From the NCBI GenBank assembly GCA_037447655.1, contig JBBHKE010001511.1, positions 72,106 to 136,105 of the forward strand: 64,000 nucleotides of DNA. Reading direction: 5' to 3'. Positions 10,468-33,400 of this stretch are shown here, piece by piece; position 1 is the stretch's first letter; each line of letters begins with the position of its first letter. A program made the position numbers and the translations under genes. The notes under the pieces were generated by a model. The model saw only the letters and a program-made list of their open reading frames with translations. It was not told where the DNA came from and searched no databases. The DNA is from Zygnema cylindricum. Lineage: Eukaryota; Streptophyta; Zygnematophyceae; Zygnematales; Zygnemataceae.

Positions 10468-11560
10468 CTATTTTAGACCAAAGAACAACAAAGTGTACTC
10501 CATAGAGGTAAGGCCTAAAATGCTGGATGGCCCACAGTGCGGCGAGTAAACCCCATGGTAACTGCTGTAATTCCCCTCGGCTCTGTTCTTACTCCAGCTT
10601 GCGTAGGCCACTACTTTCTCAGCCCCTACATCGTCCAATTGAGCCAAAAATGCTCCTAATATGAAACTGCTCCAATCAGTATAAAGGAGGAAAGGTCGCT
10701 GGTGATTGGGCCTCCGAAGCACGGGATGTTGCTTGAGGGAATCTTTCAGGAATTGGAAAGCAGTCTGATGTTCTTCCCCCCACCGCCACTCGTGGTTCTT
10801 TTGCAATAATTCAATCAATGGCTGGGCGTGGCTACTAAATTTGGGAATAAAGCTGTGGTATTAGTTAGCCAGACCTAGGAAAGTGCGAAAAGCAGAAACG
10901 TCCTGCGGGGGAGGAAGGGCATCAAGAGCTGCCACCTTTACCGTGTGGGGACCCACTGCCTCAAGAGTCACCTCATGACCCAGATAAATGATTTATGCAC
11001 CCCAAAAATGCCCTTCCACCGGTGACACTTCAAGCTCGCTGCTTGGAGAGCTCGGAGAACGATATGTATATGTCCCAAATGCTCCTCGAAGGTCATGGAA
11101 AAAATGATCTAATTGTTGATGTAATACCGTGCGCAATCGATTTCCAGAAGGGCCTCGTCCATGGCCCGTTGGAATTTGGCAGGTGCATTTTTGAGGCCAA
11201 ATGGCATCTACAAAACCATTCATACAACCTAGATCCTGCCCAAAAAACGGTCCTCTCTCGATGCTTCAACTCCATTGCAATCTGGTGGAATCCATTCTTC
11301 ATATCCAACCTAGAATAAATGGTGGCCCCAGCAAGAGAGTCAAAGATCTCTCCCCAGTTAGGCATTGGATAAGAGTCGGAGACAGTTGTGGCGTTGAGCA
11401 TGTGATAGTCCCCACACATCCGAAAATCCACATTTTTCCCAGAGGAGTCTTTATTTGGCGAGAGCACTGTTCGAGAGGCAAACCCAGGTAACCCTATTTA
11501 TTCCTCCACCAACCTTGCGTACACCAAAGTCTGCACCTTTGCAGTGATGAACTCCTTCTC
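10468..11560 (-). pseudogene. Gypsy reverse transcriptase and RNase H remnant
   Basis: The frame entering from the methyltransferase carries the pre-RT linker and the RT fingers/palm: DFRMCGDYHMLNATTVSD, then YSRLDMKNGFHQI (about 11290-11420), typical of Ty3/Gypsy. A frameshift near 11210 moves to another frame with the GLKNAPAKFQ block. The catalytic YxDD position (plus strand 11112-11123) reads Tyr-Ile-Asn-Asn followed by a stop, so both catalytic Asp are lost. The connection and RNase H start at about 10850, with FLLYTDWSS (first catalytic Asp) and AEGNYSSYHG. The frame ends at 10468, before the rest of RNase H. Not active. Confidence 0.88.
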
Positions 11561-11890: not shown

Positions 11891-12910
11891 TTATGAGCCT
11901 TCGCTCCCCGCCACTAAGGAAATTCGTGTGTTCAGTGTGTTATCTGAATGTAATTTGGTGAATTTTCCCCTTCTTGCCTCTCTCCCCCCCTTAAGTTGTA
12001 GAGTCGCTTGCATCGCCAACAAATGTGGAGCTTGAAGGTATGTTGCCCGTGATTTTGGAGACTGGTGGCTGGAGAATGCCAAAGAATGTTCCAGCACCCA
12101 TGAAATTGCATTCAAATCCATACTTTACCAGATTAAACTCCACCTTTTTGAGGCTGAGACCCGCGGTGCTACTGTGGTTGTCGGTCGAAATCCCATTGCT
12201 CGTTCCCGTTCCTCAATACTTGGTGCTGTCTTATTAGCGGTCGTACTGTCAAAGATCATCCATGGTGCGCCTTTCCGGTAAGCATGGCTGTTAAGGAAAG
12301 ATACCAGGGTCGGTAGGGCCCTCCGTGGATTTCCGGGTTTATTGCAATAGAAGAAGGGTGCTCGGTCGGCTGTGGCCACGGGGGTGGCCATTCGCCCTGG
12401 TCCGAGAATCTGTTTAACTGTGATGTTGGGATCCGGAACATGTGTTTTCAATAGCTGTTGGAGGATGGGAAGAGGAGCCAAGTTGGTCCAATAAGCTCAA
12501 ACTTTGTGGGCTCTTGATCCGATTTGAGCTGCATCAAACACTATAGGAGTTCCCATAACCTTGGTCACTTAGTTCCACCTGTTGACCACCTGTTTCCTTT
12601 TATCATCTGTGGGGTGAATATTTTCCAAGACGTACCCCACTAGTGTGTCATGGCGTTCTCGTAACCATGTTATCAGTCGAGTCATCTGAAAGAATGTTTA
12701 GATATCCTGGTGTCCCTTGCCCGGTCCCGCTAGCGAATACCATTGGCAAGGCCATCCAGCGACCACCAGATCTACCCTTCCAAGCTTCTCCAAATGTGAA
12801 TCCATGATGTTGTCCACATTATGAGGAAGCGTGGGGTGAGAGTTAGACATGGCAAACACCGTGAGTTGCTGTGGGTAAAGTTGGTGCAGCTGTTGGCCGT
12901 ACTCACGCAT
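11891..12910 (-). pseudogene. Cytosine-5 DNA methyltransferase domain inside Gypsy pol
   Basis: The domain carries the ordered motifs of C5-cytosine methyltransferases. Motif IV is DLVVAGWPCQWYSLAG with the catalytic Pro-Cys at 12744-12755. Motif VI is YVLENIHP (about 12611-12631). A motif VIII-like segment is DAAQIGSRAHKV then YWTNL (12479-12540). Motif IX-like IEERERAMGF lies at about 12187-12224, and the motif X-like end DLNAISWVLEH at about 12085-12121. The spacing and motifs VIII-X resemble the DNMT3/DRM type more than DNMT1. The frame is continuous with reverse transcriptase, with stops at about 12696, between 12482 and 12695, and at 12122. Motif I (the SAM-binding FxGxG) is absent: the sequence before motif IV passes straight into a protease remnant. 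The copy is dead, but its place in pol is clear. Confidence 0.88.
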
Positions 12911-13284
12911 AAGTCACTCGGACTGATTTTTGGCCAAAGTTCCTCGGGCATTTGCTGTAATGTTGATGTTGTTATGGGGTTAGGGAAAACTCTAGTATCC
13001 ACCACTGCGTGTTGATACCCATCGTATCCATTAAGTTTAAAATTACTTGTCTTGTTAAGAATAAGAGCCACTGACAGGGCCTTGTAATCTTTATCCGCTA
13101 TAGAAGTTTTTAGTTCAGCCGACATGAAGACTGTCTTGGGTGGTTCTGCCAACGCGACCCTTTCCCTCGTGGTGTGAATCTCTTCCCCTAGTGTTTGATT
13201 GAGGATTTTTTCGAGCAAATTGTGGGAGGAAGCTAAGGTTTTGACGTGAGTCAAGGCGTAGGGCATCAGGTGCCGTCCTAGCAT
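12911..13284 (-). pseudogene. Gypsy aspartic protease remnant
   Basis: The frame includes HAVVDTRVFPNPITTSTLQQ, which matches the active-site region of retroviral-type aspartic proteases (usually D-T/S-G-A) with the Gly replaced by Arg. It is followed by a flap-like LCVSTAN segment. The domain stops there and, after a frameshift near 12910, is joined to the middle of the methyltransferase. The rest of the protease and the methyltransferase N-terminus appear to have been deleted together. The assignment rests on position between gag and DNMT/RT plus this short match. Confidence 0.6.
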
Positions 13285-13293
13285 AACTGCCGG

Positions 13294-15191
13294 TTAAGAA
13301 GAAGGAGGGTGAGCTTTGGGCGATGAAATGGGTGAGTCCTCGTCTTTCGATTTCTCCTGTTCCCCCCCCCTTTCTTTCTCACTCTCTGCGTCAAAATTCC
13401 ATGTTGAAGGTGTAATTGGCGGATCTGTTGGTGGACTTCCAGCCAAGTATCGGTCGAACCATTCCTTATCTGTTTCAATGGTCGAAGCATCCTTTTCCGG
13501 ATCTGGTTTCTCGTAATCCTCCAAACCAGGAGAAAGTTTCTTTGGAACCGGAGGAGGCGGATGGGTCGGTTTTAGGCCCAGCCCAATGTCACTATTCAGA
13601 GTGACAACTTGTGGTGTGAATGATAAAAGGCCGGTGGCTTTGCAGCTGTGGTCCTTTGGTTTCATCGCCTCTTTGTCCTTTCTCTATGAGAACGTGGTAG
13701 AGTGGAGTTGCTTGCGACTGTCCCCTACGCCGACGCTCCAAACTCCAGAAAGAAATGTCCAAGCATGATGTGCATTTGGAGGCTCCATATCCTAACCCAT
13801 GAGGTCATCATCATCTCCACCCACCGTGGTTTGCTGTTCCAGCTCCGCTAGTTTTTATAGCAATTATTCTTTCTGTTTTTGTAATTTTTGAGCAGACGTC
13901 AGAGGTTGAGGTTTGCGAGCATTGGATCCCAAGTAGAGAGCAGCCAATTTTGCTCCCATGGCGGTCAATTGAGTACTCTGCTGCTGAATGATATGTTCCG
14001 GGGTCTTGGTCACGGTTCATTGGTAGATCGACGTCCCTAAGGATACAAAAGTTGCAATAGCAGAGGATTAACGGTTGTTTCCCTTTCGCCCGTGAACATA
14101 GCATATTGCATCATTTCTTTTGGGACCCCATTCTTCCAGAAGCATTGCATTTCCTTATGGCCCATGGACCCAAAAGCCTCACATTTTGAACCCTCAGTTG
14201 TATACTTCCCCTAACCTCATTAGAGATCTGAGCATCATCAAATTTAGGAAGTCGGATTTGTCTTAACTGAGATAAAGACATCTTAACAGTTTCGTAGCGC
14301 GGGGTAGGATTATAAGTTTCTTTGGTGACCGGCGTACGGTCCCCTCCTTCGCCTCCCTGCCTCCTTTCCTGTTGTTTCCGAGTTCTTTTTGCACGTTCTT
14401 TCTCAAATTCTTTTTGGTTTATAGCGAGTTGTGGGTCGAGCTTCCTGGGGCATCGTTTCCACCTGTCATCGGTTTGGTTGCAGTTCAGGCAATTGTACAG
14501 ATTAACTTTTTCATCTGCCCCCATTGGAGGTTCGGATCTGGTCTCAGCTTCCTGTTTTCCTTTAAGCTTCCGCAAAGCTTGAAGTTTTGTTTGTTCCTCT
14601 TGGTTAAGAGAGGATTCCCCCGCGAAACCTGCAAATTTGGCTCGCGCTTTGCCGGTAACAGCCTTTTCCCTCACCTCGCCGTGTACAAAATGATCATATA
14701 ACTTCATTGCAACCAATAAAATTTCTTGTGCCGTTGGGTTTTTTGTCGTGGATAGCCTGACTGGCACTCCAATTGTCTAAAGCTGCCTGTCCTGTTGACC
14801 CGAACAAATTTCGAACTGCGACAGAGTATTTTGTGGCCATGGCCGGGGTATCAATTGTAGACAGCTTGATTTTTCTGACAGAGGCGTGAGAGGTGGTTGA
14901 ACAACGTCTGCAGTGTTTCATTTTCAAAAAACGTCGGAATTCCGTGAACTTCTTGACTGCAGTTTCGTTCGTTTTTGTATAAAAGAGTCTCCTAGCGTCC
15001 AGAATAGTGATGCAAGGAGCTGGGTTGGCAACCATCCGGGTGGCTGCCTCGGCGGTATGTACGGCTTGCAGTTGGTTGACATAAGCCCTACCTTGGGCCT
15101 GCAATTTCATGTCCATAGTGAAAGTGGAGGTGAGAAGAACTACTGCGGCGGCAGCCATTTCGGCTGCTGGCTGAAGGGCTTCGGCGTCCAA
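13294..15191 (-). pseudogene. Gypsy gag remnant
   Basis: Three minus-strand frames cover this region. 15191-14694 is Ala-rich and helical at its start (MDAEALQPAAEMAAAAVVLL) and holds a capsid-like body with a TxxxKFTEFRRFLKMK segment. 14767-14111 contains a Cys cluster (CLNCNQTDDRWKRCP, a zinc knuckle that lost its His) followed by a highly charged Lys/Arg/Glu stretch. 13665-13294 is Pro/Ser/Glu-rich linker. Several frame changes show decay. The assignment to gag comes from its order upstream of protease and the zinc-knuckle-like motif. Confidence 0.65.
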
Positions 15192-15576
15192 AACCAGATC
15201 AGATATTTTGATGCAACATGGGTTAACGCTCCTCCTAGTCGGCCAAAGATCTTCTAGCTAGATAGTTGACCATCATAGGAAAAATAGTTGTCTCAAAATC
15301 CCCTAGGATGGCCCCTCACCTATATTTGTCAATTTCGGACTGCGTGAAGGATTTCCACAACAGTTCAAAATCAGAAAAAGCAATTCCCGAGTTGTCCTCG
15401 TGAAGATCCAGATTTCCTCCATTCTCCTTTCTTCCTTGGTAGGACTGGTGAACCGTGGTGAGGCCTGTACGGTGGGGCTCACATACTGAGCCGGTGAGAT
15501 TGCTTGGGATCAGAAATCTCGAGACCCGAATCGATCCCTCCTCTTATTGGAAAGGCGGTAGCAACAATAGTGGTTG

Positions 15577-16477
15577 TGTTGAAAAGAGGTAATTAATAGT
15601 TCACTTCTATATTTTAGTTAGAATGTAAAGAGAGAGAAAGAGAGAACCAAAGACACGCCATGGCTGCCGCGTCATTTAGAAGGAGGCAGAATGAAATAGA
15701 AGGTATTTTTCTATTTGTAGCAAAATACTACCTAATGCCGAATTTGAACCAGGGTCTACGGACTACTATTTTGACCTAAGCCTTATCCACTAAGGCACAA
15801 GCAAAACGATATACGTATTACGTTCTACGCATATTCATCTATTTATTAAACGGACTAATTTGCAGCACACTAACGAAAACACGCATTAATCAATTCATTC
15901 ATGGAGGCGAATCGAAGCCGCATTAATACAAATGATCGGACGGCCACAATTGCAGCCGCCACCCGCAATAAACTTTTGGCGGCCTTTGGGGACATGGTCA
16001 TGCGACGCCACGTGGCACCATACTATTCGATATCGAGAAGATGGAAGGAGGAACCATGGCTCATGTTTTGACAAGCGTCACTTTGAAAGGCATGTCGTAC
16101 AATGGCTGTACAATAATTTCATCGCCTAGTGTACCTTCTTGTACCATATAGTGTTTCTATTGGACTAGGGTTTAGTAGTAGGTAGTCTTTAGTAGGCAGA
16201 CCAGGACTTAGTGAAATTTAGGTACCTCTCTCTAAGAGATCTTGTAAATATAAAGGTCATCTTTGACCAGCCATAACTTACTGCTCAGAGGAGCAAATTC
16301 AGTGATTCTTTTTGCGTTTGACTCAGGGGAGTCTTGTCCTCACAACGTTGAGAGTGGTCAGAATATTTGTGTGCCTGGGCGGCGCTTATTCATTGGGAAA
16401 GTAGAAGGGGCAAATATTATCCTAGAGGCTTTACATAGGCTGCTCATTCACTGCTCAATGGAGACCACATAATTGCA
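15577..16477 (+). repeat. Cop2 5' LTR
   Basis: It begins TGTTGAAAAGAGGTAATTAA and ends ATTGCA before the primer-binding site. It holds an antisense tRNA-like segment (about 15732-15811). Compared with the 3' copy it differs by scattered substitutions and small indels (901 versus 872 bp), so the insertion is not recent. Confidence 0.9.
15732..15811 (-). other. Antisense tRNA-like segment in Cop2 5' LTR
   Basis: On the minus strand this reads as a D-arm-like GCCTTAGTGGATAAGGC (A-box position) and, about 35 nt later, GGTTCAAATTC (B-box/T-loop position). It is repeated in the 3' LTR. No full cloverleaf with a good anticodon arm can be drawn, so this is a tRNA-related module, not a tRNA gene. Confidence 0.6.
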
Positions 16478-19400
16478 GGTTATGGGCCCACCCTCTAGAA
16501 TGCCCATATTTGATGGATTAGAATATATTTTTTGGGAAATGATGATGGAGGGAGAAATATTTGAGAAACAACTATGGGGCATAGTGTCTAGATAAGTTTG
16601 ATACCCACCTCCACCTGGGTTTGGAGGAAAGCGTTTTTTTTGCACCTCCGCCTCTACAGTAGGTAGAATAGCTGCCACCATCACTGAGGATGAAGACGAG
16701 GAAGGAGAGGAGATTGTCATGGAAGGAGTTATGTGAGGAGTTGCACATGAAGTGACACCATTGCCGAAGGCGATACCGGCAGCAGCACCACTAGCAACGG
16801 CGACAAGGGTTCAAATCAAAAGATCAGAGCATGAAAAGTGGAACTACAAAGACAAAGTTGTTAAGCTCTAAATTCTTAAAAGTGTAGCAAAAGGCATTGT
16901 CATTTCCCTTATGCATGTCAAATCTCACAAGTTAACAAATATAAGAGTGGATCATTGCAGCAGCAACAGTTGGCAGAAAACAAGATTGCAGCTTATACTT
17001 ATAAGGGAGGAAGCATGAATAATTATTGCAATGATTTAAGAGAATTATTTGGAGAGCTAGAGAGTGCAGGTAACTCATGGTCTGAGAGAAAAAGAGTGAA
17101 CACATTAATGATGAAACTACCTGAAGAGTATGAGAATATCATTAATCGATTGCAGGACAAAGGAGATAGCAATTGAAATTGGGATGACACAGTGGGAATG
17201 ATTTTAGTGAAAGAAAACACCATAGAGCTTAGGGGAGGGAGTCCAAGTGTTCAAGCATTGTCTCCAAGAGTTGATTGGCGGAAGCGTGATGAGGAGAGAG
17301 AGAAAGATCCCTATCGAAACTTTGGAGGAAGAGGACAAGGAGGTGGTAGATTTGATAGACAGGGGAGAGGAACTTCTCGCGGAGGACTATGCCACTTCTG
17401 CAAGAAACCAGGACACTATATGGCAGATTATGGCAAACTTGCAAATCTTCGACTAAAAGATGGGCTAGAGACCTTAAGAAATGGAGGAAAGAAAAAGGTT
17501 TTCCTAACTCAATTTCATGATGAGCAAGAGAACGAGAAACCGAACAAGAAGAGGAGCTTGAAGAGCTTCTTCTTAATCCGAAAAACACTAAAAAACATGT
17601 TGACATTTCACGGAGACAAGAGTGTGCTTTCAGAGGTAAGAAAGATCCACCTGAAGATGGGTGGATCATAGACTAAGGGGCCTCAATGCATATGTGCAAA
17701 GATAAAAGGTGGTTCACTAAACTGAGAAAGATCCCAACAGTTTAGATAGAGTACGGAGATGGTAGAGTAGAAACCACAAGTCTTGTTGGAACTGTTGACT
17801 TGAAGGTTCTAGTTGATGGAAAGGCCTCAATTGTAACACTCTCATAGGTTCTTTATATTCCACAGCTTAGTATAAACTTGGTCTCAACAGCTGCCCTAGA
17901 TGAAAAGGAGTTTGAAACAGGAACTAGGAAAAGAATCTTCACAATAAGCTTTGATAATGAGGTTTATTTCATAGCTGAGAAGGGCAGTCAAGGAATGTTC
18001 ACAATTGTTCATTGCAATGAAAAGATTGTTCTCTACTTGTGTGCAAGTGAGATGATGCTTTGGCACAAAAGGTTGGGGCATGTGCATCTAGATAGACTAA
18101 AGAAAATGAAGAAAAACGGAATAGTGGAGGGTATTACTTTTGAGGATGATGAGACCTTTGATGGTTGCAGTGGATGTGCCCAAGGGAAGATTCATAAACT
18201 TCCGTTTCCAAAAGCAACCACATTTAGGAGAGAGAAAGTGTTGGATCTAATTCACACAGATGTTTGGGGACCTGCTAGATATGCTTCACATGGGGGAAAG
18301 AGGTGGATGTTAACTATCACAGATGATTGGTCTAAATACACGAAGGTATACTTTCTCAGACATAAGTCAGAGGTATTGAGATGTTTCAAAGAGTATAAAG
18401 TATGGAGTGAAAAACTACAGAAACCTCAATAAAAGAGATAAGAAGTGATAATAGGAAAGAATACACCTCAAGGGAATTGGAAGAATATCTTAAAAAAGAA
18501 AGAATTCATCATGAGAAAACTGTTCCCTATAATCCGGAACAAAATGAAGTAGCAGAAAGAGTGAATAGAACTTTAGGAGATATGTCCAGAAGTATGTTAA
18601 CTGATAAGAGGATAGGGTTGCAGTTTTGGGCGGAGTCTATGAACTATGCTAATTTCATCAAAAATATAGTCATAACTTCAGCAAATAAGGAGGAAACTCC
18701 GTATGAGAGGTGGACAGGAAGAAGGCCTAAATTGTCTAGTTTGAGAGTGTTCAGAAGTCAAGTCTACAGTTTGGATTCCGATAAGACTAAATAGAAGTTA
18801 GAGGGGAGAGGGAAGCCAGGATAACTTGTAAGATATGATGAGAGCACAAAAGGATACCGAGTATATGACTTGAAAAAGAGAGATATAAATTTGGTAAAAC
18901 ACATAGTGGTGATGAATGAAGAGAAGTCCATTGATTTATTCAAATATAATAAGGAAGTCAAAATCAGATTTGAAACAGATCAATTTTTTGACTTTGACTT
19001 TGAAAATGAAGAGAAGGAAGAGGGAGAAAAAGAAAAACTTGCAGATCTACCAAAGGAGAAGGAGGAAAGGACAACATCCGAGGCAACGCCATAATACGAA
19101 GTGGAAACCGTTGAGAAACTTGATGAGACACCGGAATTGGAAGATACGGAGCTGAAAATTTTCCTAAACGAAACCCAAGGATGCCTTCTATACCGGCGTC
19201 CGATATTGGAGGGGGAAGAAAAAGTAGTAAACGACTTCAAGAAAGACAAGTAAATAACCAACTCACAAAGATTTCTCGCCCTGATGAACCTTAAACATAC
19301 TTAGAGGCCATAAACACTCCAAAAAGTAGTTGGTGGATCACAGCTATAAATGAAGAAATGGCCTCTATCATGGAAGCCAATACATGGGAGTTGGTAGATT

Positions 19401-20872
19401 GTCCACCGGACCGAAAACCGATCGGATGTAAGTGGGTTTTTAAACTTAAATTAAACCCGGATAATACCATTGAGAGGTACAAAGCTAGGTTAGTTGCAAA
19501 AGGATATACTCAGAAAGAGGGGACAGACTACGAAGAAACCTTTGCACCTAGAGTCAGATTTCCTTATGTTGGAATCCTTTTAGATTTAGCCGCAGCAAAG
19601 GATATGGAAATACACCAGATGAATATTAAAACGGCCTTTTTGCAAACAGTGTTGGAAGAAGAAATTCACATGAGGCAACCGGCTGGATTCGTGGAAAGTG
19701 GGGAAGAAAGCAAGGTTTGCAAATTGATATAATCACTCTATGGGCTTAAGCAAGCCCCGCGACAGTGGAATATAAAGCTCGACGAATTTCTGACCGGTTT
19801 GGGGTATATCAGAATTAGTTCAGATCACTCTATATATTTATTTGAGGATGAGGATGGATTGATATTTATTGTTATTTATGTGGCTGACTTGTTCGTCTTA
19901 AACAAGTCATTAGATAAAATAAACAAACTAAAACGGAATCTTAGAAGCCGCTTTGACATGAAAGATCTCGGCAAAGCAAAGTACCTTTTGGGAATTCAAA
20001 TGGAGAGAGATAGAGGGAATAGGATATTAAGACTCACTCAGAAAGAAGTAATTGGTAATATGCTAGAAAAAATTCAAATGGATAAGGCAAACGGATGTAT
20101 TACTCCTATGGATTTGAAAAAAGTGTGTGAGGGGAGTGAAGAGGGAGGAATATTGATCATTAATGATGAGATAGATGACATAGAAAGAAGATTTATGGAA
20201 AGTATCTCTTTTCGACAGATTGTAGGCAGTTAAATATATTTTATGAATTGTACCCGGCCCGATATAGCTGTAGCCGTAGGAGTCCTCAGCAAGAGTCTAA
20301 ATGAACCAAGAAAGAGAGACTGGAATGCTACCAAAAGGGTGATGAGGAATCTGGTGGGGACAAGGGAATTGTGGTTGCATTTGGGAGGGGAGCACAGTGA
20401 CATCACAACCTGGAGTGATGCTAGTTATGGAGATGTGCCTTTAAGGCGGTGTAGGACTGGATTTGTGTTGCAAATTGGATCTTGTGCATGTTGTTTGAGT
20501 AGCAAGCAACAGAAAGTAGTTGCTCAGTCCACTATAGAGGCTGAATACATGGCTTATTGTGCTGCCACCAAAGAATTAATGTGGGTGAAGTCTCTTTTTG
20601 AAGAACTTGGGTTCATAAAGACGAGAACTCATAATGTTTTTTGTGATAATCAAGCTGCTATCTCTATTGCAGCTAATCTGAAACATCACTTCAAAGCTAA
20701 GCATATGGATATTAGACTAAGCTTTGTCAGAGAGAAGGTTGAAAATAAAATCATTCAACTGGTTCAAAAAACTGATAAAGAAATGATTGCAGACATGATG
20801 ACAAAACCAGTATCTTCTCCTTAGTTGATTTATTGCAGAGAAAACTGTGGATTAAAATTGAAATATGACTAA
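16458..20872 (+). pseudogene. Cop2 gag-pol remnant
   Basis: Gag runs from ATG 16458 (inside the LTR), has a TAA four codons later, and continues through the family-conserved VMGPPSRMPIF block. The zinc knuckle is CHFCKKPGHYMADY at about 17389-17430, where the last Cys became Tyr. The protease active site reads D-stop-G near 17670. Integrase shows WHKRLGHVH and CSGCAQGK (18060-18190), HTDVWGP, and NPEQNEVAER; the middle DDE segment is frameshifted near 18430. Reverse transcriptase (19358-20230) has YVAD instead of YVDD at about 19878-19889. RNase H (20243-20872) has TTWSDASYGD and ends with the usual MTKPVSSP block. It is broken by at least eight stops or shifts. Confidence 0.93.
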
Positions 20873-20888
20873 GAATTAAGAGGGGAGC

Positions 20889-21760
20889 TGAAAAGAGGTA
20901 ATTAATAGTTCACTTTTATATTTTAGTTAGAATGTAAAGAGAGAGAAAGAGAGAACTAAAGGCACGCCTTGGCTGTTGCGTCATTTAGAAGGAGGCAGAT
21001 TGATATAGAAGGTATTTTACTATTTGTAGCAAAATACTGTCTCTGGCCGGAGTTGAACCAAGGTTTATGGACTACTATTTAGACCTAAGCCTTATCCACT
21101 AAGGCACAAGCGAAACGATATACGTATTACGTTTTACGCATATTCATCTATTTATTAAACGGACTAATTTGCAGCAGACTAACGAAAACACACATTAATC
21201 AATTCATTCATAGAAGCGAATCGAAGCCGCATAAATACAAATGATCGGACAGCCACAATTGCAGCCGCCACCCGCAATAAACTTTTGGCGGCCTTTGGGG
21301 ATAGCGTCACGCGACGCCACGTGGCACCATACTATTGGAAAATGGAGAAGATGGGAGGAGGAACCATGTTTTGACAAGCGTCACTTTGAAAGGCATGTCG
21401 TACAATGGCCGTACAATAATTACATCGCCTAGTGTACCTTCTTGTACTATATAGTGTTTCTATTGGACTAAGGTTTAGTAGTAGGTAGTCGTAAGTAGGG
21501 AGACTAGGACTTAGTGAAATTTAGGTACCTCTCTCTAAAAGAGCTTGTACCAGCCATAATATAATGCTCAGGGGAGCAAATTCAGTGTTCTTTTTGGGTT
21601 TGACTCAGAGGAGTCTTGTCCTCACAGGTGTGAGAGTGGTCAAAATATTTGTGTGCTTGGGCGGCGCTTATTCAGCGGGAAAGTAGAAGGGGCAAATATT
21701 ATCTTAGAGGCTTTGCATATGCTGCTCATTTTCTGGGTCAACGGAGACCACATAATTGCA
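20889..21760 (+). repeat. Cop2 3' LTR
   Basis: It starts TGAAAAGAGGTAATTAA after aagaggggagc and ends CATAATTGCA; it is collinear with the 5' LTR including the tRNA-like segment. The first TGT is lost or altered compared with the 5' copy. Confidence 0.9.
21042..21112 (-). other. Antisense tRNA-like segment in Cop2 3' LTR
   Basis: Minus strand: TGCCTTAGTGGATAAGGC followed by TTGGTTCAACTCCGGCC. This copy keeps a perfect B-box core (GGTTCAACTCC), better than the 5' LTR copy. Confidence 0.62.
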
Positions 21761-21972
21761 GGTTCCCTTCCCCACTGAGGAAGGTCTTGCTCTTCAATAA
21801 AAGGTCTTAGTGCTGCTCCTCTATATCCAAGAGAGGCTTGTTCCTCCCTGAAAATTGTCTCCACCGATGGGATGTGGAGACGAGGTCTGTTTAAAGAAGG
21901 TCCTTGGGGAAGGGATGGTGGCGGAGACGGAGAATACTGGGGCTTTGAGGGAAAGGTGTCTTTCTCCCAGGC
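21761..21972 (-). mobile_element. Gypsy piece between Cop2 and Cop3
   Basis: These 212 bp lie between the Cop2 3' LTR and the Cop3 5' LTR. The last five bases (CAGGC) are the Cop3 target site, repeated at 28420-28424. By continuity of the target duplications it belongs to the Gypsy gag side. The minus-strand frame at 21864-21640 is partly this piece and partly Cop2 LTR, so it is not a gene. Confidence 0.75.
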
Positions 21973-23017
21973 TGTAGAAACTAATGGTTTTTATTAGTAT
22001 TTTCTAGGTCTGAAAAGAAATATAGAAGCCGAGGCAGTCTATCTCTAACTTCTCTCTCCAACTCTCAAACTTGTCGCAGTCACTGAGAAATTGGAGAGGA
22101 AGCTAGAGCCATGGCTACCTTGGCTATCCTGAGGTTTACGGGAATTTTATATCAGGGTTTATTTATTTAAAAGGTATGTGCCGGCGGCAGGATTTGATCC
22201 TTGTACCTACCAGCCGGCAGACAGGATATAGCCGGTAGCCTTAGCCGTTAAGTCTAGCAATAGTGTTAAATACTATATAGTTTGATATTTATTTAAATAT
22301 GTATACGTACGATAAATCATTTAACTGTTATGGATTACGGGATACATAGATCCAGTAGTATATAATGTACGAATTACGGTACGGACAAAAATCAATACCG
22401 CACATTTGTTTCGTAAGTGAAACAAATACCGCGCATGTATTTATTACGGCTACGATTAAATCCGAATTTAATCGGACAGCCAGGATTAGCGCCGAGATCG
22501 CGAAGGAAGATTTCGGCGGTTTGTGGCCATCGCCACATCGGATGACGCGTGGCGAAATTCCGTTGGATTGTGGAATCTCCGGAGATTATGGCACCGAATC
22601 CGGATTTGACATGTGTCGACATTTTGGCCATGTCGTACAATGTCCGTACCTAAAGTACACCGGCAACTGTACTTTTGCGTACGGAACTCAATTCTGATTG
22701 GTTCCGTACATCAGTAGATAGAGTCTGTGAGAGAGATAGGACTTAGAAAAATTAGAAGATAGGACCCCCTCTCCCAGTGAGCTTCTGTACAAAAGGTCAA
22801 CTTTGACCCTCCATAGCTTACTGCTCAGGGGAGCAAATTCAGAGATTCTTTTTGCTACCGACTCAGGGGAGTCTTGCCTTCACAAGGGTGTAAGTGGTCA
22901 GGGTTTTTGTCTGCCAGGGTGGCAGTTATTTTTGCTGAAACACAAAGGGGTCAGGATTACCTAGAGGCTTCTTGGAAGCTATCCACTCTGAGGACTTATG
23001 GAGGTCTCAGAGTTTCA
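21973..23017 (+). repeat. Cop3 5' LTR
   Basis: It begins TGTAGAAACTAATGG and ends GAGTTTCA. It includes an antisense tRNA-like segment (22178-22258), a long stretch with cgtatacgtacg-type motifs, and at its end the gag ATG (22998), 20 bp before the LTR boundary. Confidence 0.95.
22178..22258 (-). other. Antisense tRNA-like segment in Cop3 5' LTR
   Basis: Minus strand: A-box-like GACTTAACGGCTAAGGC, a GC-rich hairpin (CCGGC...GCCGG), then AGGATCAAATCCT, which can form a T-arm with AGGAT/ATCCT paired. The opposite strand is the LTR sense strand. Confidence 0.58.
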
Positions 23018-26000
23018 AGTTATAGGCCCACCCTCTAGGGTACCAATATTTAATGGAACTGGCTTCATATACTGGGAAAGTATGATGATAGGAGCTCTAT
23101 GCGAAAAAAGGTTTTGGGGGATAGTGAGTGGACGGTTGGGGCGTCCATCAAGTTTTGAAATTCCTCCAGGGTTTGGAGGAACCAGATTCACCAGGAAAGA
23201 GAACCCACCTTCAACGGAGGAAACAAAAGAATGAGAGGTGGTGGAGAAAGGAAAGGAGAAGGAGACGACCACACCAATAGCAACTGGTTCGACATTCATG
23301 TCACCTATTCCGAGGAATGAGGAGAATGACACTGAAACCTGGGACTTCAACAATATGGCGGCAAAGCACTTCATCCTACGCCATCTCACTCAAGGACTTG
23401 CATGTCTTCATTTGCAGGTAGAAAGAGCATCCGATCTTTGGATGGCTCTCATAGAGATGTACCGAAGTGGTACGATTCAGCAACAACAGTTGGCTGATCA
23501 GAAAGTTAAGGAGTATGTATACAAAGGGGGAAATATGTTGGATTTTTGCAATGAGCTTGCTACACTCTTCATGGAGCTACAGAGTGCGGGAAAAGATTTT
23601 AGTGAAAAAAAAGAAGTTAACTGTTTACTGATGAAGTTACCTCATGAGTTCGTGAACATAGTTTACCGTGTGCAGGACTTGCCTGACTCAAGGTGGATAT
23701 GGAACTCAGTGGTAGGGATGATTCTCGTTTAAGAGAATACAATTGAGATCCGAAGGGGAGGAAAGAGTGGCCAAGACTTGGCAACAGCGACTGATTGGAA
23801 GAACAGGGATTCCCGAAAACCGGTCGGAAACTATGGGGGTAGGGAGCAGAAAAAACAGGCCGATGAGTTCAAACCAAGGGCTCCCAAAGGTCTATGTCAT
23901 TTTTGTAAGAAACCGGGGCACTATATGGCAGAGTGCACTAAGCTAACCGAGCTTCGATTAAAGGAGGGGCAGACCGGTGGTACCCCGAGAGGAAAGAAAA
24001 AGGCCCTTGTCACACAGGTACTTGAGGCTGAATCCGAGGACGAGGACGATCAGCTCCTTTTGGATGAGGAGTTGGAGGCAAAAAATGAGGTCGAAATTCC
24101 ACGAAGGCAGAAATGTGCTTACGGTGGATTGAAAGGTGAAGCAGGCTGGATTGTAGATTCAGGTGCCTCCATGCACATGTGTAAGGATAGACACCTGTTC
24201 ACTAAGATAAGAAAGATTCCCACCGTAGAGATAGAGTGCGGGGATGGGAGGATAGTCACCACTACTCTTGTAGGATCGGTAGATCTAAAAGTGTTAGTAG
24301 AAGGAAAGACATCCATATTAACATTCTCCGATGTATTGTTTATTCCGGAGCTGAACAAAAATCTTATCTCTACATCAGTATTAGATGATAAGGGTTTTTT
24401 TACTAGCACTAGGGAAGGAGTCTTTACTGCTAGTTTTGAGGATGATGTCTATTTCATTGCTGAGAAAGGTAGCCATGGGATGTTTAGGCTGATCTTAAGT
24501 AATGAAAAGAAGAAGCTTTACTATGCTGGTGTTCATGATATTATGATGTGGCATAAGAGGCTTGGGCATGTGAATCTAGATAAGTTAAGAGAGATGAAAA
24601 AGATGGGAGTGGTGGAAGGGATTCAGTTCAGTGAGAGTGATGATATAAGTGATTGTAGTGGATGTGCTCAAGGTAAAGCACACAGATTACCCTTTCCTAA
24701 GTCAGCCACCTATAAGGGAGAAAAAATTCTAGATCTAGTACACACAGATATTTGGGGACCGGCTAAAGTGCCCTCACCGGGGGGGAAGAGATTTATGATG
24801 ACTATAACTGATGATTGGTCTCGGTATTCCCGGGTATATTTTTTGAAAAACAAGTCCGAACCTGAGGATTGTTTTAGACAATATAAAGCATGGAGCGAAA
24901 AACTCCATGAAACTCCAATCAAGAGAGTAAGGAGTGACAATGGTGGAGAGTATACTTCTAACCAGTTTGAAGATTTTCTGAGGGAAGATGGGGTTCAACA
25001 CCAAAAGACAGTTCCAAAAAATCCGGAACAAAATGGGGTAGCTGAAAGGTTAAATAGAACAGTAAGTGATAGTGCTAGAACTATGTTGTCAGATAAAATG
25101 ATAGGAAAAAGGTTTTGGGCAGAAGCAATGAACTGTGCTAATTACCTCAAGAATACAGTTCTTACTTCAGCTATAAAAGATCAAACACCTTATGAGAGAT
25201 GGACAGGCCGGAAACCAGACATATCTCACTTAAAGGTTTTTGGCAGTCAAGTGTTCAGTCTAGATACTGATCGGTCCAATTGGAAGCTAGATCCTAAAGG
25301 AAAACCGGGATACTTATTAGGATATGATGAAGATGTTAAAGGATATAGAGTTTATGATCTAAAAAGGGAAGATATAATCTTAGTAAAGCATCTAGTAGTT
25401 ATGGACGAAGGAAAGTCTGTGGATCCCTTCAAATATACGAAGTCAGTAAAAATCAGATTTGAGTCAGAAAATTCCAATGACTTTGAGCTTGCTAACTATC
25501 CAGGTTTTAGAGAAGATGCCATTCTTGCACGTACAAATCAGACCGAAAAGGACTCGGCTGTGGAAACTCCAGTGACAACTCTACTCGAAGCGGAAGACGT
25601 GGTGGAAATTGATTCGGAATCAAGGGATAGGGGAGAAGCCGAGTTTGTTCGACAGAATCCACGAGAACCATCTATTCCAGCCTCAGTTTTTGAGGGGGGG
25701 AGGAGAAGTAGCAAAAGACTGCAAGAAAAACAGGTTAATAACAAGGTAACTAAACTATCTCATCAAGATGAACCTCAAACTTATGGAGAGGCGATGACTT
25801 GTCCAGAAAGAAACCGGTGGAAGACAGCCATCAATGAGGAGATGGCTTCAATCATGGCAGCCGATTCTTGGGAGCTGGTGGACTGTCCACCTAACTGAAA
25901 ACCAATCGGTTGTAAGTGGGTTTTCAAATTAAAACTGAACCCAGATAACACAATCGAGCGCTACAAGGCCAGATTAGTGGCAAAGGGATTTACACAAAAG

Positions 26001-27359
26001 GAAGGAATTGACTACGAGGAAACCTTTGCCCCGGTGGTTAGATTTCCCTCTGTCCGCATACTTCTGAGTTTAGCAGCGGCGGAAGACATAGAAGTGCATC
26101 AGATGGACATCAAGACAACCTTTTTGCATGGAGAATTGGAAGAGGAGATCTTCATGCGACAACCCGAAGGTTTTGTGGAGGAAAGAGAGGAGAGTAAGGT
26201 ATGTCGGCTGATTAAATCTCTTTATGGTTTGAAACAGACACCTCGACAATGGAATAAGAAGCTTGATGAGTTACTTACCGGTCTGGGATATATTCGGATC
26301 AGCTCAGATCACTCAATCTATGTTTTTGAAGATGAGGAAGGTTTGATATTTATTGCAATTTATGTTGATGATTTGCTTGTATTAAGTAAATCAATGGAAA
26401 AAAATAAACAAACTGAAAACCGATCTTAAGGGGAGATTTGAAATGAAGGATATGGGAGAAGCAAGATATATTTTGGGAATTCAAGTAGAGAGAGACCGAA
26501 AAAGGAAAATTATAAAACTGACTCAAAAGGAAGCAATAGGGAACATGCTTGAAAAATTTCAAATGGATAAAGCTAATAGTTGTACAACTCCAATGGAGTT
26601 GAAGAAGGGAAGTGAGGGGAGTGAGGAAGAACGAGTCATAGTCTTAGACGAGGAATTATCTCCTGATGAACAAAAGTTCATGCAGACTATTCCTTACAGG
26701 CAAGTAGTGGGAAGTCTAATCTATTTTATGAATTGTACCCGGCCGGATTTAGCTGCAACTGTAGGAGTGCTGAGTAGAAGTCTAAATGCTCCCACTAAGA
26801 AGGATTGGGAGGCAGCTAAGAGAGTCCTTAGATATTTGGTGGGAACTAGGGATCTATGGTTGCATTTGGGTGGGGAGAATACTGACATCACTACTTGGAG
26901 TGATGCCAGTTATGGTGATGCTCCGATGAGGAGATGCACTTCTGGATATGTATTATATGTGGGTGATGGGGCTTGCTGTTGGAGTAGCAAACAGCAAAAG
27001 GTTATTGCTCAGTCCACCATGGAGGCTGAGTATATGGCTTCTTGCTCTGCTGTAAAAGAATTGATGTGGGTCAAGTCTTTGCTTGGTGAGCTTGGTCACC
27101 TTAAGAGTGGTGTGCAGAAAAAATATTTTGTGATAATCAGGCAGCAATCGCTATTTCTGCCAATCCTAAACATCATTTTAAAGCCAAACACATGGACATC
27201 AGACTCAGCTTTGTTAGAGAGAAAGTAGAAAACAAAATAATCAGTTTAGAGTACAGACCAGATAGTGAGATGATAGCAGATATGATGACCAAACCTGTGC
27301 CTTCCCCTAAGCTAATTTTTTGCAGGGAGAAGTGTGGTCTGAAATTAAAGATTGACTAG
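22998..27359 (+). pseudogene. Cop3 gag-pol polyprotein (three stops, two frameshifts)
   Basis: One frame of about 1453 codons starts in the LTR at 22998 and ends TAG 27357-27359. Gag: MEVSEFQVIGPPSR, then the typical copia body to about 23760. Zinc knuckle CHFCKKPGHYMAEC (about 23898-23940). Protease WIVDSGASMHMC (about 24148). Integrase: WHKRLGHVN, CSGCAQGKAH, then HTDIWGP, RSDNGGEY and NPEQNGVAER supply the DDE residues. Reverse transcriptase: GCKWVFKLKLN, YVDD intact at about 26361-26372. RNase H: TTWSDASYGDAP, STMEAEYMA, ending in MMTKPVPSPK. Stops at 23232, 23730 and 25896; the last is TGA where Cop2 has CGA, a CpG transition. An extra A near 26400 and a missing T near 27125 shift the frame and shift it back. 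Confidence 0.95.
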
Positions 27360-27372
27360 AAAATAAGGGGAG

Positions 27373-28419
27373 TGTAGAAACTAATGGTTTTTTATTAGTA
27401 TTTTCTAGGTCTGAAAAGAAATATAGAAGCCGAGGCAGTCTATCTCTAACTTCTCTCTCCAACTCTCAAACTTGTCGCAGTCACTGAGAAATTGGAGAGG
27501 AAGCTAGAGCCATGGCTACCTTGGCTATCCTGAGGTTTACGGGAATTTTATATTAGGGTTTATTTATTTAAAAGGTATGTGCCGGCGGCAGGATTTGATC
27601 CTTGTACCTACCGGCCGGCAGACAGGAAATAGCCGGTAGCCTTAGCCGTTAAGTCTAGCAATAGTGTTACATACTATATAGTTTGATAATTATTTAAATA
27701 CGTATACGTACGATAAATCATTTAACTGTTATGGATTACGGGATACATAGATCCAGTAGTATATAATGTACGAATTACGGTACGGACAAAAATCAATACC
27801 GCGCATTTGTTTCGTAAGTGAAACAAATACCGCGCATGTATTTATTACGGCTACGATTAAATCCGAATTTAATCGGACGGCCGGGATTAGCGCCGAGATT
27901 GCGGAGGAAGATTTCGGCGGTTTGTGGCCATCGCCACATCGGATGACGCGTGGCAAAATTCCGTTGGATTGTGGAATCTCCGGAGATTATGGCACCGAAT
28001 CCGGATTTGACATGTGTCGACATTTTGGCCATGTCGTACAATGTCCGTACCTAAAGTACACCGGCAGCTGTACTTTTGCGTACGGAACTCAATTCTGATT
28101 GGTTCCGTAAATTAGTAGATAGAGTCTGTGAGAGAGATAGGACTTAGAAAAATTAGAAGATAGGACCCCCTCTCCCAGTGAGCTTCTGTACAAAAGGTCA
28201 ACTTTGACCCTCCATAACTTAGTGTTTAGGGGAGCAAATTCAGAGATTCTTTTTGCTACTGGCTCAGGGGAGTCTTGCCTTCACAGGGGTGCAAGTGGTC
28301 AGGGTTTTTGTCTGCCAGGGTGGTAGTTATTTTTGCTGAAACACAAAGGGGTCAGGATTATCCTAGAGGCTTCTTGGAAGCTGTCCACTCTGAGGACTTA
28401 TGGAGGTCTCAGAGTTTCA
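27373..28419 (+). repeat. Cop3 3' LTR
   Basis: It is collinear with the 5' LTR over its whole length, with a few percent differences at most by eye. It ends GAGTTTCA followed by target duplication CAGGC and Gypsy sequence. Confidence 0.95.
27579..27658 (-). other. Antisense tRNA-like segment in Cop3 3' LTR
   Basis: Second copy of the segment at 22178-22258, with the same A-box-like and T-arm-like parts and two or three substitutions. Confidence 0.57.
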
Positions 28420-29458
28420 CAGGCAACCTTCTAGAGGTCTCGGGAGGAGCAGTTCATGAGCCGAAAGTTTGGGAGCGCCTGCGAGGTGGTGAGTAGGCGG
28501 GGACGAATTTGTACGGTAATACAGGCGGGTCCGGTGACCCACGGACTACTGCAGCGGGAGAAAGGGATGGCGAAGGAGAGGAGGCATGAGGTGGTTATGG
28601 TGGAGGATTGGACAGTCCGAGGGAAATGTGTAGTCTATGGTCGGGTTGTGTTGCACCACAGCCTCCACATTGGAAGATACCGCTACCGAGACAAAGGTAG
28701 GACGCTCAGTGGAAGCGGCTGCCAAGTTACCTCGTAGATCTGCACCTAACCCCTCCCGTTAAGCCCTGTTGTTTCCTCCCCTTCCCGTTGAAGAGGAGAT
28801 TCTAGTCTAGTTCCTTGTGAAGTCCTTAGATAGTGCGTCGCAAGAGGAGTTGCTTGACCGTGAGGTTGTCCTCCAGCAGAGGGACCTGTCCTACCAGGAG
28901 GAGCTATCTGTCCACTAAAGATCCCTTTTGATCTCCGTCTAGCCTCCCGAATTACGAGGAGGAGCTATCTATCCACTAAAGATCCCTCCTGATCTCCGTC
29001 TAGCCTCCCGAATAAGGAGTAGTTCATGTTCCAATGCCTTCTTCCTTTCCTCTTCAAGAGCCTCCTAGTCTATGGTGTTGGGTCCGGCCCCTGCCGTAGC
29101 TTTACTCTGCGACCACAGGATATCAACCAGTTTCTGTGTACTGCTCACCATACCCGAGAGATTCACAATCCCCAAACGCGGTACCTCGGGGTCTGTGGGT
29201 CTTGAACGCCAGAACCCTTTGGAAGGTCAAACAACCGGTGATGATGGAGACAGGGAGCTTGGTGAGACTGAGGCGGAAGGGAAGAACAACTCCTCTTTAG
29301 GTCAGGGAGCAAACTTGCCCTTGCAGTCTTGATGGTCGAACCGGTGCACTCTCTTGGGCTCTGGTAACCCCCCCTTGTTGGTTCCTTCCCCCGCCCGGGC
29401 CCTAGAAGTCGCCTTGCCCCTACACGGTTTACTGGGTGCAGTGACTTGAAATTGAATG
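28420..29458 (-). mobile_element. Gypsy piece between Cop3 and Cop4 (gag region)
   Basis: This GC-richer stretch is bounded by the target duplications CAGGC and GAATG, so it is part of the same Gypsy. On the minus strand around 29050-28950 it encodes a charged helical segment (EALEEERKKALEHELLLI), as expected for a gag linker or coiled coil; stops and frame changes are frequent. It includes a 62-bp tandem duplication (about 28897-29020). Confidence 0.7.
28897..29020. repeat. 62-bp tandem duplication in Gypsy
   Basis: Two copies starting gaggagctatctrtccact and running to cctcccgaat, at about 28899 and 28961. They differ at a few positions. The unit is not a multiple of three, so it shifts any gag frame. 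Confidence 0.85.
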
Positions 29459-30466
29459 TGCAATTCTTTGTCCCCTATTAGACTACAGAATTCAGAAAGT
29501 TTCTAGATAAATTTTAACTAACCCACTTCAAGCCACAACCACTGCTACCCAAAAAGGCAAACTGACAGTCTCACTGTACGCGTGTGCAACTTGGACTCCC
29601 CTGAGTCCGTAGCGAAAAAAAGTCACTCAAAACGACCAACCAACCGATAACTTATGATGTGGCATAAAATGCCAATTTATACAAACTCTCAAAGAGAGAG
29701 GTGACCGTCTATCCCAAAAATGCTAAGTCCTAACCCCTCTCACAATCCATATCTACTACGTACAAACGAATCAAATAACTGTGAAGTAGAGAAAGGTACT
29801 AAAACCGATGTTCTTTCTAAACGGCCTGTGTACGACAAGGCCACTGAGTGGACGGGTGTCACCTTTCCACTCGTCCGTATGTTCTCCGGAGATCCTGCAA
29901 TTAAAAATTTTTCCATCCACGTGGCGCCAAGTCATGCCACGTATATAAACGCCAAAGTGACCATTCCGCGATCCCGGCAGTGATAAATGTCGTCCGATTA
30001 AATCTGACATTAAATGTCGGCCGTCGAAACAAATATCCGATTCATTTGTTTCGTGCGAAATGACGTCCGCACCGAAACTTTAACTGGTTCTATGTTCCTT
30101 TGTTCACACTTTAGTTAATCAGTTTCAAGATCATGTACAAGTTTAAATATGTATCAAACCCTATGTAACTTAACGCACTTCTACGACAAACTCGTTAGAG
30201 CTAACGGCTACGCCGTACTCTACCGGTCGGAGGTTCAAGTCCTGCCTAACTCAACATTTTGTTGAGAGTGACATAAGTCACTCTTTAGTCCTGCCTCTTG
30301 AACTAAAGCAGCCATGGTTCAACCACCCTCTCTATCATTTAGTGACTACAACAAGTATGGTGGCTAGAGAGAGGAGGTGGAGGCAAGTTGTCCGCCCTTT
30401 TCTTTTTCTTTTTATACTGATATATTTAGACCTAGAAAATACTTTATAAATCTAGTAATTTCAACA
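29459..30466 (-). repeat. Cop4 3' LTR
   Basis: Minus-strand start TGTTGAAATTACTAG at 30466 and end at 29459 (TTGCA). It contains a tRNA-like segment at 30193-30251 on the plus strand, that is, antisense to the element. Confidence 0.92.
30193..30251 (+). other. Antisense tRNA-like segment in Cop4 3' LTR
   Basis: Plus strand: GTTAGAGCTAACGGCTACGCC, later GGTCGGAGGTTCAAGTCC (perfect B box GGTTCAAGTCC) and a 3' end CCTAAC that can pair with the 5' GTTAG like an acceptor stem. The anticodon arm is too short for a working tRNA. Confidence 0.65.
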
Positions 30467-30479
30467 CTCCCCTTATTTT

Positions 30480-33400
30480 CTAGTCTAACTTTAACTTCAG
30501 TTTTAGTCCACATTTTTCTCTACAATATTTTAATTTTTGAGAAGGCATTGGTTTTGTCATCATATTAGCCACCATTTCCTCATCAAATCTATATACAAAA
30601 TACACAATCTTATTCTCAACTTCTTCTCTCACAAAACTCAATCTTATGTTCATATGCTTAGCCTTGAAATTATGTTTTGGATAAGCTGCAATTACAATGG
30701 CATCGTGATTCTCATAAAACACTTCATGCACACCCTCCTTCATATACCCCAGTTTTTACAACAAGGATATGACCCACATTAACTCTTTCACAGCAAAACA
30801 AGAGGCCATGTACTCCGCCTCCAAAGTAGATTAAGCAACCACCTTTTGTTGCTTGTTGCTCTAACAACAGCCACCTTCCCCAACATACAACACATACCCA
30901 AAAGTGCATCTTCTCATTGGTGCATCCCCATAACTGGCATCACTCCAAGTAATGATATCAGTGTGCTCCCCTCCCAAATGCAACCGTAACTCTCTGGTTC
31001 CTACCAAATATCTCATGACTCTCTTGGCTACCTCCCAATCTTTCTTCCTAGGATCGTTAAGACTCCTACTGAGGACTTTTACTGCTGCCGCTATGTCCGG
31101 CCCTGTACAGTTCATAAAGTATATCAAACTTCCTACGACCTGTTTGTAAGGAATAGACTTCATAAACTCTCTCTCCTCATGACTCATATGATCATCTAAA
31201 ATTATCACTCCTCCTTCTACACTCCCATCACTTACTTTCTTCAAGTCCATGGGAGTGGTACAATTGTTTGCCTTTTCCATGTGGAATTTCTCGAGCATAT
31301 TACCTATTGCTTCTTTCTGAGTAAGTCTGATAATCCTTTTCCCCCTATCTCTCTCCATTTGGATCCCTAAAATATATCTTGCCTCCCCTAAATCCTTCAT
31401 ATCGAATCTGCTTCTAAGATTTTACTTTAACTTATTGATCTTTTCAAAATATTTATTTAACACAAGCAAATCATCTACATAAATTGCAATAAAATTGACG
31501 TCATTCTCATCTTCAAATATATAGATAGAATGGTCCGAGCTGATCCGGATGTATCTCAGACCGGTGAGAAACTCATCTAGTTTTTTATTCCACTGTCGAG
31601 GAGCCTACTTCAGTCCATATAAGGACTTTATGAGCCTGCAAACTTTGCTCTCTTTTCCTTCCACCACAAATCCCTCTTGTTGCCTCATGAACATTTATTC
31701 CTCTAACTCACCATTAAGAAAGGCAGTCTTAATATCCATCTGGTGTATTTCCATGTCTTCCGCTGCTGCCAGACTGAGGAGAATCCTTACTGATAGAAAC
31801 CGAACAACTGGAGCAAAAGTCTCCTCATAGATAATCCCCTCCTTTTGGGTGAACCCCTTTGCTACCAGTCAAGCCTTATATCTCTCAATGGTATTATGTG
31901 GGTTCAGTTTTAGTTTAAACACCTATTTACAACCAATCGATTTTCTGTCCGGAGGACAGTCCGCTAGCTCCCAAGTATTTGCTTCCATGATGGAGGCCAT
32001 CTAATCATTTATGGCTCTAATCCATTTGTCTTTCTCTGGACTGTTTACTACCTCCGATGTGATTGAGGCTCATCAGGGTGAGATAGCTCAATTATCGTGT
32101 GAGCGGCCTGTTTTTCCTGAATCCTTTTGTTGCTCTATCTCCCCCCCTCAAACTTTTAAGTTGGGATAGAGGGAAGTCTTTTATTTCTCCTTACTGTCTA
32201 ATCGTCTCCCCTATCCATGGAAGCCGGTTCTGGTTCCTCCTCTTCTGTCTCCTTGAAGTCCATAGAAATATGTGAGGTTTCCAATGGATCTCCTATGTCT
32301 TAGATCTCCCCTTAATCTTCAATCCATGTTTCACTCAAGTCCCTTTCGGGAAGGATGGAGTCCTCCTCACCTTCAGACTCAAATCTGATTCTTATCTTCT
32401 TGGTATATTTAAAGGGGTCAAATGACTTCCCTTCATCCATGACAACTAGGTGTTTGACCAGAATGATATCTCTCTGTGCTAAGTCATATACTCTATATCC
32501 CTTGACATCCTCATCATATCCTACAAAGCATCTAGGTTTTCCTTTAGCATCTAGTTTCTAGTTTTTCCTATCCGTGTCAAGACTGCAAACTTGGCTACTG
32601 AATACTTTAAGGTGAGAGATATCTGGTTTCCTTCCAACCCATCTCTCATAAGGTGTCATTCCCTTTACAACTGAGGTAAGGGAATGTAGTTGGCACAGAT
32701 CATGGCTTCTTCCCAAAATATCTTTCATATTTTCTTGTCGGCCAACATACTGAATGCACTATCTTCTAGTGTTCGGTTCAACCTCTCAGCTACCACATTT
32801 TGTTTCGAGTTATATGGTACGGTTTTTTGGTGCTGAACTTCCTCATCTCTTAAGTATTCCTCAAAGTGGTTAGAGGTATATTCCCCCCCATTATCACTCC
32901 TTATTCTCTTAACGGGGGTTCCATTCAACTTCTCACTCTAGGCGTTATATTCTTTGAAGTAAGTTGATGTTTCATACTTTGTTTTTCGAAAGTAGACTCT
33001 AGAGTATCTAGACCAGTCATTGGTTATTGTCAACATAAACCTTTTTCCTCCAACCGAAGGTACTTTTCCAGGTCCCCAGATATCTGTGTGGACCAGATCT
33101 ATAACTTTCTCACTTTTGTATGTGGCGGTTTTAGGAAAGGGAAGTATGTGAGCCTTACCTTGAGCACAGCCACTACAATCATCCATCATTTCATTTTCTC
33201 CAAACTGAATGCCTTCTACTACCCCAAGCTTTTCCATTTCCCTTAACCTATTAAAATGCACATGCCCCAATCGCTTATGCCAAATCATCAACTTTAGAAC
33301 ACCAACATAGTTGACATTCTTCTTTTCATTACTCAGGTTAAGCCTAAACATTCTTTGGCTACCCTTATCTGCCTTCAAGTAAACATAATCCCCATACTTA

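Follow-up and report, generated by a model that had tools for sequence, protein, structure and literature searches.

The window, a 64,000-nucleotide stretch of the Zygnema cylindricum genome, contains a copy of a Ty3/Gypsy-type retrotransposon, now dead, with a C5-cytosine methyltransferase (MTase) of the DNMT3 type in Pol between the protease and the reverse transcriptase (RT). We assign this reading as a whole a probability of roughly 0.85. The anatomy of the element is nearly certain from its sequence, and the functional steps proposed below have about an even chance of being correct. The decisive support for the MTase in the window comes from relatives within the same genome. The coding remnants in the window are as follows.

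12068..12895, minus strand: decayed C5-cytosine MTase of DNMT3 type, equivalent to residues 46-323 of the L013 domain (82% identity), with motifs IV, VI, VIII, IX and X present
12743..12757, minus strand: motif IV GWPCQ with the catalytic Cys (position counted by hand)
12617..12625, minus strand: motif VI ENI (position counted by hand)
10816..11482, minus strand: Gypsy RT remnant with frameshifts and stops
10481..10800, minus strand: RNase H remnant (Pfam match 10471-10860, E 6e-21)

The original prediction of a minus-strand C5 MTase ahead of a Gypsy RT was borne out by profile matches to both domains, by phmmer and by the genomic relatives. Pfam analysis of a 71-aa open piece (12701-12913, minus strand) gave a match to PF00145 with an E value of 1.4e-4 and 21.8 bits, just under the curated cut-off of 22 bits. 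When the MTase was read through as a single frame with stops as X, the score was 22.7 bits (E 8e-5), above that cut-off. Among solved structures, the best relative found by phmmer against the PDB was DNMT3A (E 4e-6, residues 32-176). The RT gave an RVT_1 match at 11096-11497 with an E value of 3.5e-5 and 24.1 bits, under the cut-off of 29.6. The GWPCQ motif IV, the ENI motif VI and motifs VIII-X described earlier were all located inside 12895-12068 on the minus strand. The MTase had been drawn as 11891..12910; 12895-12068 stands, but 12067-11891 is spacer. It had also been placed in the frame of the RT, and 12913-11093 is indeed a single frame, although stops interrupt it. A protease remnant upstream of the MTase had been proposed, and Pfam analysis of the window gave none. 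The window copy is dead and cannot yield an active enzyme.

The genome assembly (352.8 Mb) was searched with PF00145, yielding at least 123 scored matches and 782 first-look candidates. Open frames of at least 700 aa hold 16 of these scored matches, and frames of more than 1000 aa hold 7 (counted by eye). Twenty 10-kb loci, selected by MTase match and mostly for long frames, were fetched, and an RT was found behind the matched MTase in 19. In the exception, L025, the matched MTase lacks an RT behind it, and a second, partial MTase on the opposite strand has one. A search with the L013 RT returned at least 147 scored matches and 3633 first-look candidates, and for at least 33 of the 147 the listed PF00145 matches include one that lies 0.5-3 kb upstream in the same orientation. 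This low fraction arises because part of the candidates was scored, at least for the ten loci checked: upstream of the best 10 of the other 114 RT matches, an MTase was present in register in 10 of 10, two of them partial (residues 77-323 and 185-323). MTase-less relatives may exist among the other 104 RT matches and the unscored candidates. One family RT (C961:71719-72495, minus strand) sits in a 5743-aa open frame, far over the length of one element and perhaps representing two elements head to tail; the stretch upstream of it (L052) holds MTase residues 185-323 only.

Five long frames (L009, L011, L012, L013 and L018) were scanned with Pfam. All five gave DNA_methylase scores of 41-49 bits, against the PF00145 cut-off of 22, and all five are open across MTase and RT. 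The 2395-aa frame of L009 encodes, in order, a zinc knuckle, a protease motif, MTase, RT, RNase H, a DDE integrase and a PHD finger, with Pfam matches to DNA_methylase (E 2e-11), RVT_1, two RNase H models, H2C2, rve and PHD (E 1.5e-9), a weak zf-CCHC match (16.6 bits, under the cut-off of 20.8), DTG at 720 and YIDD at 1598. The frames of L012 and L013 run from the MTase through the PHD finger (21.5 and 17.5 bits, under the cut-off of 24) and also contain YIDD, and those of L011 and L018 stop after RNase H. Evidence for the protease consists of the DTG motif in L009 and an Asp_protease_2 match under cut-off in L011. The second and third residues of the integrase triad are 35 apart (D-x34-E) in L009, L012 and L013, and these three frames share a PHD-like Cys/His (C4HC3) pattern. 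A PHD-type Cys/His pattern C-terminal to the Gypsy integrase was noted in L009, L011, L012 and L013. The motif order in intact copies is I-IV-VI-VIII-X. Gypsy copies with the order protease-MTase-RT, for which the original prediction proposed a genome-wide search, were found, and the MTase inside Gypsy pol proved to be a regular component of the element family. The two outcomes that had been named as speaking against the prediction, no match to C5 MTase profiles and other copies lacking the segment, did not occur in these analyses.

Alignment with the C544 copy revealed that window 37759-10491 (minus strand) is collinear with it in five pieces (37759-35812, 29452-28427, 21967-21809, 15501-12885 and 12895-10491), with Copia elements filling three gaps between them.

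35812..37759, minus strand: 5' end of the element, with the start of repeat A, the leader and the start of the gag region (77% identity, collinear with C544 608-2554)
29459..35808, minus strand: nested Copia insertion 1 (aligned LTRs 29459-30459 and 34802-35801, 89.3% identity)
28427..29452, minus strand: element piece 2, gag region (collinear with C544 2559-3528, 73-75% identity)
21973..28419, plus strand: nested Copia insertion 2 (LTRs 97.4% identity, exact 5-bp duplication CAGGC)
21809..21967, minus strand: element piece 3, gag region (collinear with C544 3536-3695, 71%)
15580..21764, plus strand: nested Copia insertion 3, aligned ends (LTRs 89.5% identity)
12885..15501, minus strand: element piece 4, the remaining gag region and the stretch ahead of the MTase (78% identity, collinear with C544 3885-6506)
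12885..12895, minus strand: deletion junction, about 685 bp gone (683 bp against C544, 688 bp against L013)

The junction at 12895/12885 has a 6-11 bp overlap, and MTase motif I is missing from the window copy because of this deletion. DNA homology with the relatives stops at 10491, indicating that the integrase and PHD finger have been lost. The repeat A found in the 3' ends of L021 and L026 likewise begins at the equivalent of position 37759. Insertion 2 is, by LTR identity, the youngest of the three Copia elements. For insertion 1, GAATG stands ahead of 29459 and is repeated 7 bases past the aligned LTR end, and insertion 3 is flanked by the near-duplicate GGTTG/GGTTC (both read by eye). 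Across the 64-kb window, Rfam at gathering scores gave no match and ARAGORN no tRNA, and Pfam gave no match on 10 ORFs located at 39-63 kb. Among host markers, PsaA/PsaB gave four short matches; a DNMT3 bearing DUF3444 would indicate a streptophyte other than a flowering plant (PMC6453930), and a group I intron in 18S rRNA would indicate a member of the Zygnematophyceae. A tRNA-like A-box/B-box sequence was seen at 15730-15810 (minus strand), in the aligned Copia LTR 15580-16481. A large tandem satellite with a period of about 40 bp occupies 539-2356 and 3814-4703, the second array being inverted relative to the first.

Both copies resolved end to end (C1344 and C829) have the repeat layout A-coding-B-A-B. 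The A repeats are 931 bp and 100% identical in C1344, and 1388 bp and 99.6% identical in C829; the B repeats are 99.6% and 99.5% identical, respectively. This near-identity indicates that both insertions are young. C1344 has a GC dinucleotide between the inner B and A, and both copies have TGTC...GACA ends, with the 4-bp sequences TTGG and AAGG seen by eye to be duplicated. Over 7.4 kb, L010 and the C1344 copy share 99.9% identity, and their 3' flanks differ. The group B 3' ends (L021 and L026) read B-A-B, with A matching the window from 37759 downward. Two complete LTRs are not present, the repeats being split in both end-to-end copies. The protease-RT-RNase H-integrase order, DDE integrase, TG..CA ends and target duplication are Ty3/Gypsy traits that the family shows; by its domains the element is of Ty3/Gypsy type, but its split repeats set it apart from canonical elements with two LTRs.

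Over eight pairs with unsaturated dS, the MTase omega is 0.10-0.32, a set in which L009/L010 rests on hardly any changes and three other rows carry one MTase stop. RT omegas are 0.07, 0.13 and 0.14 for three pairs and 0.16 and 0.20 for two more, with zero nonsynonymous changes in the L009/L010 RT; integrase omegas are 0.10 and 0.48 for two pairs, the latter showing that single values are noisy. MTase/RT omegas for the three pairs with both are 0.165/0.072, 0.129/0.130 and 0.178/0.144, the MTase value in the first (L009/L017) being twice that of the RT. Between subfamilies, NG86 (Biopython) gave saturated dS, and pN/pS was recomputed: between A subfamilies, pS is saturated at 0.76-0.82 and pN is 0.10-0.14. 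The omegas are biased downward, since the copies were mostly picked for open frames. Taken with this bias, they indicate that the MTase is under purifying selection.

The original prediction had described the MTase as DNMT3/DRM-like, of which the DNMT3 part holds. A phmmer search of the PDB with the L013 domain returned DNMT3A at 1.2e-14, HhaI at 6e-5, DRM2 at 2e-3 and DNMT2 at about 0.1, and the L009 domain matched DNMT3A at 1e-10; the top solved MTases for the family domains are DNMT3A/B/C. An AlphaFold2 model from a 9-row alignment has a mean pLDDT of 59.5, with the first approximately 95 residues modelled well and pLDDT below 50 in the motif IV loop (99-113) and residues 164-257. Foldseek analysis of this model gave 108 matches at E <= 0.001, the best 50 of which are all DNMT3 chains, with TM scores of 0.48-0.56 on the query. 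A DRM identity was rejected: the motif order is canonical, with motif I before IV and not VI-X before I-V, and DRM2 reached no better than E 2e-3.

The family MTases fall into three groups. Group A has motif I LDLFAGIGTSL and motif IV GWECQ; group B, to which the window copy belongs with Pro-Cys in motif IV, has motif I SLFSGISSDL or similar and motif IV GWPCQ; group C (L018) has motif IV GWPCQ. Read in frame, motif IV is GWECQ in 13 of 20 loci, GWPCQ in 5 and neither string in 2. Identity between groups B and C is 80% for the RT and about 50% for the MTase, and between A and B about 52% and 42%. As RT and MTase identities group the copies alike, we favour one ancient MTase capture, which would predate the split of the groups. 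Between the A subfamilies L009, L011 and L015, the MTase is 79-84% identical versus 92-94% for the RT. L044-L048, L051 and L053 form a second group-B subfamily, with MTases mostly 69-75% identical to L013. The Pro-Cys catalytic dipeptide is, to our knowledge, near-universal among C5 methyltransferases, and Glu in place of Pro could lower or alter activity. In a 9-row alignment of the MTases, the motif IV Cys, motif VI Glu-Asn and motif VIII Arg-x-Arg are invariant.

The insertion of an MTase gene or fragment into one Gypsy copy by chance would fit the decay of the window copy and a Pfam match lying only at the cut-off. Its probability is negligible: the order recurs in 19 of the first 20 loci fetched and in all 10 of the further set, the five scanned frames are all open across MTase and RT, and omegas are well below 1. 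The recurrence of the order led us to reject it. The source of the MTase is a separate matter, as capture from a phage-like Dcm instead of a eukaryotic DNMT3 gene would account for matches to phage Dcms (23-30% identity among the matches listed, the best with E 3e-15 at 30%), for one of which the top PDB match is DNMT3B. An unrooted tree of motifs I-VIII (15 rows: nine transposon domains, four phage sequences and two DNMT3s from mammals) placed the nine transposon MTases in one clade with support of 100/99 and separated the transposon, phage and animal DNMT3 rows into groups on long branches. Capture from a phage-like Dcm is less likely than not. No close donor emerged among phages or in IMG/VR or GTDB genomes: the phage matches are distant, and relatives were found in none of 8 and one of 29 (L029) stretches of IMG/VR viral contigs and in none of 23 stretches of GTDB genome contigs. 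L029 has a weak match to MTase motifs IV-VI at 5001-5153 (41% over query residues 86-141).

In the proposed mechanism, Pol would be translated with the MTase included, the protease would free the MTase from Pol, and the freed enzyme would carry out de novo methylation of DNA newly reverse-transcribed from the element itself or of its new insertion. Self-methylation is probably the function of the MTase. CpG observed/expected ratios are 0.59-1.0 in ten element-bearing 10-kb loci including flanks and 0.63 in a Copia element of the window, and this similarity leaves no clear element-specific scar of self-methylation. Pol proteins of LTR elements are packaged together with the element's own RNA/cDNA, and an MTase sitting in Pol would be packaged likewise. 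This argues against an enzyme directed at the host genome or at defence (a silencing block, masking of cDNA from sensors, an antiviral role) and not at new copies of the element, which we consider unlikely; in its favour are the many copies (at least 123 scored matches, 782 first-look candidates) and the antiviral function proposed in PMC6338049. It is equally improbable that the MTase was kept for a structural role or for binding nucleic acids within Pol, and not for methyl transfer, at least among the Glu-Cys elements of group A. The Glu for Pro replacement in 13 of 20 loci, the faster divergence of the MTase than of the RT between A subfamilies and the lack of strong CpG depletion would agree with such a role, but the motif residues invariant in the 9-row alignment, the Pro-Cys kept in the B and C copies read and omega well below 1 speak for an enzyme, as does the report by de Mendoza et al. 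of retrotransposon DNMTs methylating CG de novo (PMC5890265).

At the other end of Pol, the PHD finger may guide integration by reading histone tails, by analogy with the chromodomains of chromoviruses. Chromoviruses are Ty3/Gypsy elements with an integrase chromodomain, which steers integration. The Zygnema elements resemble them in Gypsy order and in a chromatin-reader-type domain behind the integrase, and differ in having a PHD reader, an MTase between protease and RT, and split repeats.

An MTase-bearing Gypsy element is already known from Klebsormidium nitens. KnitGypsy-Dnmt3 carries Dnmt3 in a Gypsy Pol with DIRS-type repeats, and the paper describing it suggests self-methylation (de Mendoza et al. 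2018, PMC5890265). The precedents from dinoflagellates and a charophyte named in the original prediction agree with that paper. By published description, not by sequence, the Zygnema elements are like it in the Gypsy domain set with a Pol ORF that includes an unrearranged MTase of Dnmt3 type, in DIRS-type split repeats combined with Gypsy domains and a DDE integrase (Fig. 4 legend of that paper), and in purifying selection on the MTase. The Zygnema genome has three coexisting MTase groups, one of them Glu-Cys, and at least 123 MTase matches, and its elements have a PHD finger, a term absent from the main text of PMC5890265. As the comparison is by description only, we claim no novelty for the PHD finger or for Glu-Cys. 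Our literature search gave no related report on a PHD finger with a Gypsy integrase and a cytosine methyltransferase in plants. SymbioDIRS-Dnmt3 and SymbioLINE-Dnmt of Symbiodinium, as described in PMC5890265, are likewise retrotransposons with embedded DNMTs; the former shares the repeat layout of the Zygnema elements, and both have other RT classes. DIRS elements use a tyrosine recombinase, whereas the Zygnema elements have a DDE integrase and target duplications. A later study, citing the 2018 paper, mentions DNMT3 within streptophyte and dinoflagellate retrotransposons (Mol Biol Evol 2025 msaf176, PMC12344493); the families it names there are LTR Copia and DIRS, whereas the RT, RNase H and integrase of the Zygnema elements are of Gypsy type. 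The titles, abstracts and passages covered hold no report of such elements from land plants, which is not proof of absence, and PMC6338049 states that land plants such as tracheophytes lack transposons that encode methylases.

We tentatively suggest, at odds well short of even, an old, recently mobile methylating Gypsy lineage that passed from Pro-Cys to Glu-Cys, has retained the latter under purifying selection and bears a PHD finger on its integrase. If this is true, the element would itself both deposit DNA methylation and recognise chromatin, perhaps using a modified chemistry or acting on a different substrate, such as an RNA/DNA hybrid or cDNA. Retrotransposons are normally targets of DNA methylation, and members of this family carry the methylating enzyme. 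Their charophyte host widens a known algal phenomenon, and the large number of elements, their division into several subfamilies and the near-identity of the young copies could be used to test whether self-methylation aids persistence.
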